DNA of 32,493 nucleotides from Candidatus Aminicenantota bacterium (GTDB taxonomy: Bacteria; Acidobacteriota; Aminicenantia; Aminicenantales; Aminicenantaceae). The DNA lies in the NCBI GenBank assembly GCA_014859315.1, contig JACUUK010000007.1:1-32493 (forward strand), written 5' to 3'. Positions 1 through 27,771 of this stretch are shown piece after piece. Every line of letters starts with the position of its first letter. Position 1 is the first letter of the stretch. The position numbers and the translations under genes were made by a program. Under the pieces are notes generated by a model. It was not told where the DNA came from. It did no database searches and was given only the letters and a program-made list of their open reading frames with translations.

Positions 1-112
1 TTGCCAAGACCCTCCCACCCTCCACAATGGGCTTCTGATGGAGAAGGAACCGTCGCCGCACTTCTCAATTAGGTCTGATGTTTCCCTCATCACGGAAATA
101 GAAATGATTACT
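1..112 (+). repeat. Dispersed intergenic repeat, copy 1 (5' end cut by window edge)
   Basis: Shares ttgccaagaccctcccaccctccacaatgg..gatggaga-ggaaccgtcgc..cacttctcaattaggt[c]agatgtttccctcatcacggaaatag with copies at 24162 and 24809. Weak similarity to copy 3 may extend to ~132. Confidence 0.9.
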
Positions 113-164
113 ATTTTGCTGGCCCATTGCTTTTGTCCAGATATTTTGATAAGTTTTTTAATGA

Positions 165-458
165 ATGGGAAAAGAAGAGAAAAAAAATCCAAAAGTATTT
201 CAGACGCATTGTCCAATCTGCAATTCTTTACTATGGATCGACCCGGTTACGCAAGAAGTAATAAAACATGAACAGGTTAAAAAGAAAAAGAGTTCATTAG
301 ATGAACTGCTTTTAGAAGAGAAAGAAAGAAAAGATAAATTTGACAGGAAATTTGAAGCAACAGCAGAGTTGGAGAAAGAAAAGTTAAGAAAAGCAGAGGA
401 AAAGTTTAAGAAAGCCCTTCATAAAATAGGTGATGATGAAGCAGATAAGAAGGACTAA
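165..458 (+). CDS. Small conserved-type hypothetical protein with an N-terminal CPIC knuckle and charged coiled-coil-like C-terminus
   Basis: 97-aa ORF with THCPICNSLLWIDPVTQEVIKHE then a Lys/Glu-rich helix; preceded by repeat copy 1. Confidence 0.65.
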   Translation: MGKEEKKNPKVFQTHCPICNSLLWIDPVTQEVIKHEQVKKKKSSLDELLLEEKERKDKFDRKFEATAELEKEKLRKAEEKFKKALHKIGDDEADKKD

Positions 459-3370: not shown

Positions 3371-4138
3371 ATGGCTACATTTGAAGAAGAATTAGAAAAG
3401 ATTGAACCTGTAATCCGCAAATTATGCAACTTCGCACTTCTTGGAAAAAAAATAGAAGTTCAGGGGAAAGAGAATTTTATTAAAAAAGGCCCGAATATCA
3501 TTGTTGGCAATCACATTGGAAGTTATAAGGATATTGCCATTTTATTGAAAATCGTTCCTCGTCCAATATTTTTTATAGCCAACAGGATGGTTTTCAATAG
3601 AGAAGACTTTAATTTTCTTATAAGAAATCACCTGAAATGCCACTTGAAGGACTTTGGCCTCTTTTTAGATTTAGTCCTTAAACCAATCAAATCGCTTTTT
3701 GTCAATTTTATTTCAAGCAATATCGGAAAGATTGGAACAATACCTGTCGATTTGACCTCGAGTAAAGGAATTGTCATTGAGAAATGCCAGGAACACCTAA
3801 AACAAGGAAGGACTATTATTGCTTTACAGGGGCACGGGCGAATCATTGAAAGCTGCAAAAATCCTTTCATGAGTCCATTTCGCAAAGGTGCCTCACTCAT
3901 TTCTTACAATTTATATACTCAGGAAGATAACCTTGTCCCTGTTACTCCTGTGGCCGTACTGGGAACACAGCGCCCTTTTTTAGTCCCAGGAAGAATTATG
4001 GTCAAGATTGGAAAGCCACTTTATATCACAGATTATTTTGCTGGTGGCTTATACGAGACAGTGAGCCGCTTCGCCCAGGCGATGGAAGAACGAGTAAATG
4101 CCCTAATATTGGAAAGCATAAGGGCTATGAAGACTTAA
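3371..4138 (+). CDS. Divergent lysophospholipid acyltransferase (PlsC/LPLAT-like)
   Basis: 255 aa; IIVGNHIGSYKDIAILLKI..PIFFIANRMVFNRE..GTIPVD..GRTIIALQGHGRI..FRKGASLIS resembles LPLAT block order, but the catalytic motifs deviate. Confidence 0.6.
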   Translation: MATFEEELEKIEPVIRKLCNFALLGKKIEVQGKENFIKKGPNIIVGNHIGSYKDIAILLKIVPRPIFFIANRMVFNREDFNFLIRNHLKCHLKDFGLFLDLVLKPIKSLFVNFISSNIGKIGTIPVDLTSSKGIVIEKCQEHLKQGRTIIALQGHGRIIESCKNPFMSPFRKGASLISYNLYTQEDNLVPVTPVAVLGTQRPFLVPGRIMVKIGKPLYITDYFAGGLYETVSRFAQAMEERVNALILESIRAMKT

Positions 4139-24161: not shown

Positions 24162-24293
24162 CAGCGCCGGTTCCCCTCCATCCTTGCCAAGACCCTCCCA
24201 CCCTCCACAATGGCTTCAGATGGAGAGGAACCGTCGCGGCACTTCTCAATTAGGTCAGATGTTTCCCTATCACGGAAATAGAAATGCTTACGT
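24162..24293 (+). repeat. Dispersed intergenic hairpin repeat, copy 2 (upstream of speD)
   Basis: ~132 bp; 19-bp arms GCGCCGGTTCCCCTCCATC (24164-24182) / GATGGAGAGGAACCGTCGC (24219-24237), 17/19 paired; second small stem TTTCC/GGAAA. Confidence 0.92.
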
Positions 24294-24306
24294 AATAAAA
24301 GATATC

Positions 24307-24334
24307 TTGACACCTATATTAAATATGCAATAAT
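24307..24334 (+). promoter_or_regulatory. Predicted speD promoter
   Basis: TTGACA (24307-24312)-16-AATAAT (24329-24334) with extended -10 TGC; starts 14 bp after repeat copy 2. Confidence 0.55.
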
Positions 24335-24372
24335 AATTCCGTATTTTTTTTATTTCAGAGGAGTAACTGAAA

Positions 24373-24801
24373 ATGGATAAAAAGAATCATAGTCCTGTTG
24401 GGCATCATTATATTGCGGAAGCATCTGGCTGTGACCCTGAAATCATCGGAAGTGTTGAGAAGGTCCAACAAATTTTAATCAAAGCAGCAGAGATTGCTGG
24501 TGCCCATGTTTGGGCAGTGTCTATTAGTAGATTTCCTCCAAATGGTGTCAGTGGTGTCGTTGTTATTTCGGAATCTCACATTTCCACTCATACTTGGCCT
24601 GAATATGGCTACGGAGCCTTAGATATATACACTTGTGGAAGCTCTGGAGACCCTGAAAAAGCTATTATGTATGCTGTTGAAGCTTTCGGTGCATCGAGTT
24701 CACATATTACAGAAATAACCCGGGGTATAGATGAAGGGGACAAAATCTTCTTTCACAGTTTTGTTACCTGGGAAGAAGATTTTGATAAAGAAGAGGTGTA
24801 A
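24373..24801 (+). CDS. speD: S-adenosylmethionine decarboxylase proenzyme (class 1B, prokaryotic)
   Basis: 142 aa; VVISESHISTHTWPEYGYGALDIYTCG contains the Glu-Ser self-processing site and downstream catalytic residues; RBS gaggag upstream. Confidence 0.93.
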   Translation: MDKKNHSPVGHHYIAEASGCDPEIIGSVEKVQQILIKAAEIAGAHVWAVSISRFPPNGVSGVVVISESHISTHTWPEYGYGALDIYTCGSSGDPEKAIMYAVEAFGASSSHITEITRGIDEGDKIFFHSFVTWEEDFDKEEV

Positions 24802-24808
24802 TCTGTCA

Positions 24809-24944
24809 CAGCGCCGGTTCCCCCTCCATCCTTGCCAAGACCCTCACACCCTCCACAATGGACTTCGGATGGAAGGGAAACCATCGCCGTACTTCTCAAT
24901 TAGGTCAGATGTTTCCCTCATCACGGAAATAGAGATGCCTACGT
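24809..24944 (+). repeat. Dispersed intergenic hairpin repeat, copy 3 (downstream of speD, upstream of M1 peptidase)
   Basis: ~136 bp, starts 8 bp after the speD stop; 21-nt arms 24811-24831 / 24867-24887, 17/21 Watson-Crick. Confidence 0.92.
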
Positions 24945-25142
24945 TAGAGGCAGGGCCGCGTCATTGTTTTTCAATGTACTAAAATCTTGCGATTTTTCGT
25001 CATTTTTTGAAAGACCAGGTATATTTTTATCCCAGAATTCGCATATTTTCCTCAAAATAAGAAAAAGAAAACGGGAAATTTGCGACTTTGACACAGGCCT
25101 GACGTTAGAGGGCCGAGATTATTTTTTTTATCTTATTTATGC

Positions 25143-25148
25143 TACAAT
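25143..25148 (+). promoter_or_regulatory. Possible extended -10 (TGCTACAAT) for the M1 peptidase gene
   Basis: TGC-TACAAT 13 bp before the start codon; no good -35; spacing implies a very short leader. Confidence 0.25.
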
Positions 25149-25161
25149 TCATAAGAAATAA

Positions 25162-27771
25162 ATGGAGAGACGATTTTTCTCCCTTGCTTTTCTTTTGATA
25201 TTCCTTATCTGCATTTCTCCCTTGTTTTCTGAGAGTCAACAGAGCATAAATGAACTTATTGATCAATTGCAGACAGCTCTGGAGAGGAAAGACATTCCTG
25301 CTTATTTGAATACCTTTTCGCCTGAGTTAAGGCTCGATGAAAAAGAATCCCTCGAAAGCCACTTTAGAGATTTTGAGGCAGACAGTATTTCTGTATTTCC
25401 TGCCTTTGAATCGATAGAAGAAGAAGACGAAACAACTGTTTTCCTAAGGGTTCTTTTTCAAAACTCTTATTCCGTTTTTATAGAACTGTGGAAGCTGTCT
25501 TTATCAGAGGAAAACAGGAGATGGATAATAAAGGATAAGGAAGTCAAAGGAGATGTAAAGCGCCTGTACAGATTAACAATCCCTTCAAATAGAGTGGAAA
25601 TAGTAAAGAGAATTGAAATAAAACATGTAGATATTCAAATGGTATTTAAAAATGCGATTTGTTTTTTTGACAATATACCGAAGATGGAAACAGCCTTACT
25701 TGTGATAGGTGAAGGACATTTGTATTATTCACCCAGCTCGCAGAGTGAAAGACATCAGCTGGATTTATTTTTTAAGAACACTTTTTTAGATGATAGACTT
25801 AAATATGCCTATCTCCGTTTTTCCAATTCTTTTTTTGAAAAAAATATCAAGATTATCAGAGAAGATGAAGATCAGAATACTGTCACAAAGGCAGATATAA
25901 ACAAAGCGTACTCTTTGTTTATGAAACATTATCCACGCTCGTTCACAATTGAGAATTCTTTGAATAGAGAATTGCTTTCATTTTTACCTCAAGGAGATGA
26001 AGCAGTATTTGAATTTGAAAGCAGGAGAAAAGGAGTTTTTACATATATTTATTCTCCATTTGCGAGGGAGGAAGTCAATCTTTTCCATTGGGAAGGCGAG
26101 AAAATCATTAACATTTATTCTCCTCAGATCGACAAGGAGACTAAGAGGTTTTTCATTTCTTTTGGGCAGATGTATGATGTGGAAAACTATCAGATAGACA
26201 TTAATTTTACTCCAAAGGACTCATATCTTTCCGGAAAAGCAAAAGTTATTGTGAAGTCAGAGATAGATTCCCTGAATGAGCTAAAGCTTAAACTCCATCC
26301 AGATTTAGAGATTCTTCGTATTAACGATGAAGAAAACCGTAAATTGTTTTACAGCCGAGATAGACTGAGGAAAATATTATATATTTATCTTCTTCACTCT
26401 GTTCCTAAAGGTCAAAGCGCTTCTATTGAAATTTTTTACCGTGGAAAGATTATTCCCCCAGATATCACAAGCGATGTGCTTCATATGCCTCAAATGAGAG
26501 AAACAAATTCTTTTATTTCGCCGAAATATGATACCTATCTTTTTAGCCAATCATCTTACTGGTATCCTGCTCCTCCTGACGATGACTATTTTAAAGCGCG
26601 GTTGAAAATCATTGTTCCTCATGAATACACCTGCATTTCCAATGGCGTTCTTATCGAACAGTCCTGGCTGCGGTCTTTAGATAAAGTCGAAGACTTTGAC
26701 AAGTTGGGGAATTCCGTTTGTGTGTTTGAAACGAAGGTTCCCGTGAAGTATCTTTCATTTATTGTAGGAAAATTTGATGCTGTAGAGGAAGATTTTGACT
26801 CCATTCCTTTTGCTCGTTATCAACCCTCAAAAGTCATTCTGCATTGGAAAAATTTATTAAAGGATGCTAAAGACATCTTTGATTTCTATGTAAATCTATT
26901 TGGTCCATATCCATTCGAAAAACTTACCATTATCCATAGACTCTGGCCAGCAAGTGGAGGCCACAGTCCTGCCTCTTTCATTGTGCTTAATGAGTTGCCG
27001 CGGATTCCTGGGGCTGGGCGTTTAGTGAAAGTTAAAAGCCCGGTTGACCTTCCGCTTTGGAAAGAATATTTCCTTGCTCATGAAATTGCTCATCAGTGGT
27101 GGGGGCAGGGTCTTGCGTGGAAGACTTATCATGACCAGTGGATAAGTGAGGGCTTGGCACAATATTCGGCAGTTCTTTTTTTAAAAAAGCGGTATGGAGA
27201 GAAAGCTTTTAGTCAAATTCAAAAAAAATTTTCAGAATGGACAGAAAAGAAATCAGATAAAGGCCAGATTACAATGGGTTCTCGCATCAGTTATGTTGAT
27301 TTTGAAGCATATCAAGCAATTGTGTATAACAAGACATCATTGGTATTGAATATGTTGAAAGATTATCTTGGGGAAGACGTGTTTTTTGATGGATTAAAAG
27401 AATTTTTCAGCCGTTATAAGTATAAAACCGCAGACACGAACGCTTTTTTTAGGACATTCAATGATGTATCGGGGAAAGAATTGAAACCTTTTTTTGACAT
27501 GTGGTTTAATTCATATCATTTGCCAGATGTGAAAGTTTCTTATTCTATACAAAAAAGAGAAGATGGTTATTTTCTTGAATTCAAGATAACCCAGTCCAAG
27601 GAGTTGTTTGTTTTTCCTTTAGAAATAGAATGGAAAGAAGGCGGAAAAAAGGTTTTAAAGACCGTTACTATTGATAAAAAGATGAATGAATTCGAATTTA
27701 TTCTTGAGGATAAGCCAAAAAAGATAAAGGTTAATCCCCGACGAGCTATCCCAGGAAAATTTGACCAATAA
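25162..27771 (+). CDS. Exported M1-family (gluzincin) metallopeptidase
   Basis: 869 aa; N-terminal signal sequence; HEIAHQWWGQGLAWKTYHDQWISEGLAQYSA matches HExxH-x18-E. Confidence 0.9.
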   Translation: MERRFFSLAFLLIFLICISPLFSESQQSINELIDQLQTALERKDIPAYLNTFSPELRLDEKESLESHFRDFEADSISVFPAFESIEEEDETTVFLRVLFQNSYSVFIELWKLSLSEENRRWIIKDKEVKGDVKRLYRLTIPSNRVEIVKRIEIKHVDIQMVFKNAICFFDNIPKMETALLVIGEGHLYYSPSSQSERHQLDLFFKNTFLDDRLKYAYLRFSNSFFEKNIKIIREDEDQNTVTKADINKAYSLFMKHYPRSFTIENSLNRELLSFLPQGDEAVFEFESRRKGVFTYIYSPFAREEVNLFHWEGEKIINIYSPQIDKETKRFFISFGQMYDVENYQIDINFTPKDSYLSGKAKVIVKSEIDSLNELKLKLHPDLEILRINDEENRKLFYSRDRLRKILYIYLLHSVPKGQSASIEIFYRGKIIPPDITSDVLHMPQMRETNSFISPKYDTYLFSQSSYWYPAPPDDDYFKARLKIIVPHEYTCISNGVLIEQSWLRSLDKVEDFDKLGNSVCVFETKVPVKYLSFIVGKFDAVEEDFDSIPFARYQPSKVILHWKNLLKDAKDIFDFYVNLFGPYPFEKLTIIHRLWPASGGHSPASFIVLNELPRIPGAGRLVKVKSPVDLPLWKEYFLAHEIAHQWWGQGLAWKTYHDQWISEGLAQYSAVLFLKKRYGEKAFSQIQKKFSEWTEKKSDKGQITMGSRISYVDFEAYQAIVYNKTSLVLNMLKDYLGEDVFFDGLKEFFSRYKYKTADTNAFFRTFNDVSGKELKPFFDMWFNSYHLPDVKVSYSIQKREDGYFLEFKITQSKELFVFPLEIEWKEGGKKVLKTVTIDKKMNEFEFILEDKPKKIKVNPRRAIPGKFDQ

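Follow-up and report, generated by a model that had tools for sequence, protein, structure and literature searches.

Short non-coding repeats carried by genomes of one family of Candidatus Aminicenantes lie at a fixed distance, 16 bp, from predicted σ70-type promoters. The spacing recurs across many independent insertions and in several families of the repeats; the promoters themselves are called by consensus. The reading we favor, at a probability of roughly 0.8, is that the repeats form a superfamily of non-autonomous DNA transposons (MITEs) whose transposase integrates them, in a set orientation, upstream of σ70-type promoters that already exist. As a MITE the element is ordinary; the mode of targeting is the new part.

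The 182-bp repeat is a MITE

The repeat was seen in a window of 32,493 nucleotides (the whole stretch of DNA analysed) from G000, a 2.06 Mb Candidatus Aminicenantes MAG in 200 contigs. Three copies, 88–95% alike, lie on its plus strand (Table 1). The first-pass annotation, made from sequence alone, had reported all three; they are confirmed, with the end of the second copy moved to 24291 and that of the third to 24942. Its statements that the copies are intergenic and precede the 97-aa ORF, speD, and the M1 peptidase gene, while the acyltransferase gene at 3371 has none, also held. Its unit length of ~135 bp failed: comparison of the sequence upstream of the copies puts the start of the unit ~50 bp before the boundary first drawn, and the full unit spans 182 bp; the estimate was too small because the 5′ part is missing from each of the three window copies.

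The full consensus starts with GGAAGCATCTCTATTTCCGTGACAG, finishes with ...TCATCACGGAAATAGAGATGCTTAC, and is bounded by near-perfect 22-bp terminal inverted repeats (TIRs), G[G/T]AAGCATCTCTATTTCCGTGA, each tipped GG or GT. It has no coding capacity and no transposase gene inside; it self-folds end to end as DNA (z −7.5) and the repeat folds stably as RNA (z −4.2). Target-site duplications (TSDs), assessed in the 87 elements for which the two ends and the two flanks are available, are 9 bp long: 13 are exact and 29/87 have at most one mismatch, with other lengths near zero; allowing up to two mismatches, a 9-bp TSD is found in 40 elements, versus a mean of 0.83 (maximum 4) for shuffled partners. 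Family labels in this set are approximate (the element at locus L002, labelled “other,” is a 182-bp element). Two empty sites are preserved in the sister species G001: the L002 locus (contig C200) carries a single ATCTCATTA and no element, and the speD promoter (L288) reads one GTAATAAAA followed by GATTTCTTGACACC, again without an element; at both, the promoter and the target exist in the absence of the insertion. Short, present in many copies, ended by 22-bp TIRs, flanked by 9-bp TSDs, and matched by empty sites in relatives, the 182-bp repeat is a MITE. The earlier description of a genome-wide dispersed, REP/MITE-like, non-coding element was thus right in every part except the likeness to REP: a REP/RAYT identity (20–40 nt palindromes, no TSD, a linked Y1 transposase) does not fit the TIRs and the 9-bp TSD.

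The first-pass annotation had also proposed a search of the genome and its relatives with the repeat, and had named the existence of only three copies, explained by local duplication, as its refutation. The search locates the repeat at ~40 places in G000, with unrelated flanks, and in dozens of copies in both G001 and the more distant G029, so the refutation failed. A one-copy query of G000 returns 41 matches, many of them at contig ends since assemblies break at repeats, and up to 41 are returned in each of the other two genomes. In the same bacterial family, at least 15 more genomes contain elements with the same terminal repeats and other interiors, 66–414 bp long; together, these elements make up a MITE superfamily, with common ends and differing interiors, in one Aminicenantes family. 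The shared ends occur in 0/23 genomes from other families of the same order, and no match was found in viral contigs and plasmids; an exact match at L145, in a MAG of Fibrobacteres, falls within a coding frame and seems due to chance. The genomes are without exception assemblies, for the most part of uncultured samples.

Some likeness extends into the interiors. Motifs such as GAACCATGCCCGCTC and long palindromes recur inside different MITE families (L111, L112, L109, L072, L135), possibly a sign of common ancestry or of a shared interior function beyond the ends. The MITEs of 314–414 bp (L106, L104, L118, L087, L129) have conserved interior blocks, GGAACTCCGCA, GTCGTGCTCAATAC, and GGTCGCTTCAACCATCC, with ~75–85% identity across genera, above expectation for dead spacer.

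The three window sites have different histories. The site of copy A is also occupied in G001 (L276); the TTGCTT that follows it is a possible promoter element of the 97-aa ORF, a suggestion inferred from sequence alone. Copy B is absent from G001, and alignment with L288 indicates that its 5′ end was deleted after insertion, together with roughly 180 bp of upstream DNA. The site of copy C is occupied in G001 too, by a 111-bp form that has lost its middle; in the window genome the 5′ end of this copy is lost, and what remains of its start encodes the last residues and the TAA stop codon of speD. The C-terminal end and stop of speD (window 24780–24812) thereby come from truncated copy C (GAAGAGGTGTAA); the G001 speD terminates by itself (GAGGCCTAA). 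Between copy C and the promoter of the M1 peptidase gene sits a 153-bp insertion, likely a second MITE unrelated to the 182-bp element; its inverted ends, CAGGGCCGCGTCA and CAGGCCTGTGTCA, are loosely similar (window 24943–25111).

Table 1. Features of the window that bear on the three MITE copies
Feature	Position	Strand	Remarks
MITE copy A	1..111	+	consensus ~73-182; truncated 5′ by the contig start; 3′ end at 111
Weak −35-like TTGCTT	127..132	+	15 bp past copy A; consensus match only
97-aa ORF	165-458	+	gene behind copy A
MITE copy B	24162..24291	+	consensus 51-182; 3′ end GCTTAC at 24286-24291
9-bp target sequence GTAATAAAA	24292..24300	+	adjoins copy B; single copy in unoccupied G001 site L288
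speD −35 box TTGACA	24307..24312	+	15 bp past copy B end; conserved in element-free G001
speD −10-like AATAAT	24329..24334	+	spacer 16; read from sequence
speD, S-adenosylmethionine decarboxylase, 142 aa	24373..24801	+	Pfam AdoMet_dc PF02675, E 1.4e-37
MITE copy C	24794..24942	+	consensus 36-182; 5′-truncated; start approximate
Second insertion, 153 bp	24951..25103	.	between GTTAGAGG direct repeats 24943-24950 and 25104-25111; absent from G001
−10-like TACAAT, extended (TGC-TACAAT), of M1 peptidase gene	25143..25148	+	consensus match only
M1 peptidase gene	25162-27771	+	Pfam Peptidase_M1

Spacing and orientation relative to predicted promoters

The first sign of a preferred position was that 3′ flanks are alike at a TTGAC ~16 bases out. 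Only independent flanks were kept (those >70% alike were removed), and each was scored for its best TTGACA-(16–18)-TATAAT promoter; these promoters are predicted from the consensus only, without transcript start data. A predicted promoter lies 15–17 bp outside one end in 64/87 two-ended elements, with the mode at exactly 16; the next fullest 3-base bin holds 10, and shuffled flanks place a promoter at 15–17 bp at ~3% of ends. About one quarter of the elements have no predicted promoter at this distance. At the mode, the element is followed by the 9-bp duplication, 7 bp, and TTGACA, with the −10 box at 39. In the 182-bp family, the best promoter falls at offset 15–17 in 41/77 flanks on the 3′ side and 16/71 on the 5′ side (for shuffled flanks, mean 2.2, maximum 6 and 7, respectively); in the other MITE families, which have only the ends in common, it does so at 41/103 ends (shuffles, mean 3.0, maximum 8). 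The peak is one base wide, with 72/96 promoter-facing ends at exactly 16. MITEs whose interiors are unrelated share the spacing, and all sampled genomes show it, the single-contig G014 and G025 among them. The 16-bp spacing across many independent insertions and several MITE families is thus shown, for promoters predicted by consensus, and the earlier remark that copies lie upstream of genes is sharpened to a fixed distance from the −35 box.

Are the predicted sites promoters? Both boxes appear in unselected columns too: of 269 ends, 16.7% have TTGACA at offset 16 (background 0.66%) and 14.1% have TATAAT at 39 (background 1.0%), a match of 5/6 or better being required for each box. Ends with a weak −35 box are still enriched for a −10 box at 39 (7.8% vs. 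background 1.0%). Among 41 cases with a predicted promoter at this distance, 37 have a next gene that points away from the element, with its start a median of 82 bp out. Since both boxes are present and the genes point in the right direction, the predicted sites look like real promoters.

The orientation of the elements is biased, with the GT end directed to the promoter. Elements with mixed tips (one GT, one GG) turn the GT end toward the promoter in 19/22 cases, versus 3 for GG; when all ends of the other families are counted, a promoter is faced by 30/44 GT ends and by 4/40 GG ends. Orientation tracks the second terminal base alone and is independent of the interior. GT is the usual 3′ tip in the 182-bp family, which accounts for what the first-pass annotation had noticed, that the copies and the genes that follow them share one direction.

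Choice of the target and rival explanations

How could an element come to rest at the same base pair upstream of so many promoters? In the model that we propose, an unidentified transposase would move these MITEs in trans: its staggered cut, 9 bp wide, would end 7 bp upstream of the −35 box, and it would place the GT-tipped end toward the existing σ70-type promoter, the target before insertion being 9 bp, 7 bp, TTGACA, ~17 bp, and TATAAT. With the −35 box in its standard position, the cut would fall at about −52 to −44. This DNA is touched by the α C-terminal domains of RNA polymerase. The guide would be either RNA polymerase bound at the promoter or a domain of the transposase that reads promoters; we infer that it is probably the former because the cuts would be made where the α C-terminal domains bind. 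The promoter would be left intact by the insertion, and the site would therefore be fairly harmless to the host. A bolder reading, which could as easily be wrong as right, is that promoter-bound holoenzyme serves many MITE families moved in trans as a genome-wide landmark, used in a fixed orientation at about −52/−44 of σ70 promoters.

An autonomous parent with these ends was not found among four transposase families, the loci examined, and the TIR pairs of the single-contig G014 and G025. Loci of DDE_Tnp_1 (PF01609), Transposase_mut (PF00872), IS1595 (PF12762), and IS66 (PF03050) in the window's own and related genomes have no such ends. An IS66 origin (ends beginning GTAA, 8-bp TSD, a PF03050 transposase within such ends) is rejected on the 9-bp TSD and on PF03050 loci that lack these ends; in G014, two ends 1.9 kb apart have ordinary genes between them and no transposase. 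The weak PF00872 transposase of G000, G003, and G014 was rejected on its own, different ends (GGGCATAATACT); insertion sequences at L216 (G000, contig C37), L215 (G014), and L214 (G003) combine this weak match with 27–49 bp inverted ends around that sequence. Orphan MITEs without an autonomous partner exist.

We infer that the spacing arises from target selection, not from later selection on random insertions. The latter is the main rival: elements would enter AT-rich intergenic DNA at random and survive only at tolerated or useful distances upstream of promoters, for example by supplying an upstream activating or insulating sequence. In its favor, some insertions are common to two species and hence retained, activators can depend on a fixed phase, the hairpin might act as an insulator, and insertions elsewhere could have been removed by selection. 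We consider it unlikely, however: a peak one base wide (72/96 at exactly 16), the same for unrelated interiors, is hard to obtain by selection, and orientation is set by the second terminal base only. It remains possible, and is not excluded, that the transposase reads a bare TTGAC(A) ~7 bp from the cut and that promoters are hit merely as carriers of the motif. No single signal is stronger than TTGAC at offset 16, and TTGACA is raised even at ends with a weak −10 box (5.6% vs. 0.7%); yet ends with a poor −35 box keep the −10 box at 39, and the genes that follow point in the right direction.

Two further alternatives fare worse. In one, the repeat would be primarily a cis-regulatory or RNA element of the host (riboswitch, leader, or terminator), dispersed for its function; this would account for the stable fold as RNA and as DNA and for the position upstream of genes, but the element lies upstream of the promoter, hence outside the leader RNA, Rfam covariance models give 0 matches in the window at gathering score, and the TSDs and empty sites demonstrate mobility; this explanation is very unlikely. 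That the three window copies arose by local segmental duplication is suggested by two of them being only ~650 bp apart but is all but excluded by the ~40 genome-wide places with unrelated flanks.

Significance and comparison with known systems

If targeting by a transposase is correct, base-pair-precise reading of promoters would be a new mode of target selection, with a possible use as a tool to place DNA upstream of active promoters; the elements would mark promoters in uncultured genomes that lack transcript data, and a position in front of many genes would not by itself make a repeat regulatory. The usual view of bacterial transposons is that they enter intergenic DNA loosely or use single attachment sites, and we found no description of fixed-distance promoter targeting by bacterial MITEs or transposons in the open-access literature searched.

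Known bacterial MITEs (Correia/NEMIS, RUP, ERIC, CIR, MITEAba12, BrickBuilt; PMC10969869) share with the present elements a short, non-coding, hairpin-forming sequence, TIRs, TSDs, a mostly intergenic location, and movement in trans. Their insertion preference is given only as intergenic (PMC10969869, section 3.3), and their effects on transcription come from promoters or IHF sites within the element (PMC10969869); here, by contrast, the promoter belongs to the host DNA outside, at a fixed distance, and is faced by a preferred end. In E. coli, IS5 likewise inserts upstream of a promoter, that of glpFK, and affects its gene (PMC2753651), but this concerns a single site and a single element, with no family-wide fixed spacing to the −35 box. 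Tn7, whose single-site targeting is also mentioned in PMC10969869, inserts in one orientation at a fixed distance from a recognized site, attTn7, as the Aminicenantes MITEs do from promoters; Tn7, however, uses one site per chromosome, read by TnsD, with a 5-bp TSD, as opposed to many promoters and a 9-bp TSD. The yeast retrotransposons Ty1 and Ty3 integrate at a favored distance upstream of promoters via the polymerase III machinery. They are the nearest working analogy, and the bolder reading would be, by analogy, a bacterial counterpart of such polymerase-guided targeting; Ty1 and Ty3 differ in using a retrotransposon integrase and eukaryotic Pol III, and no relationship is claimed.
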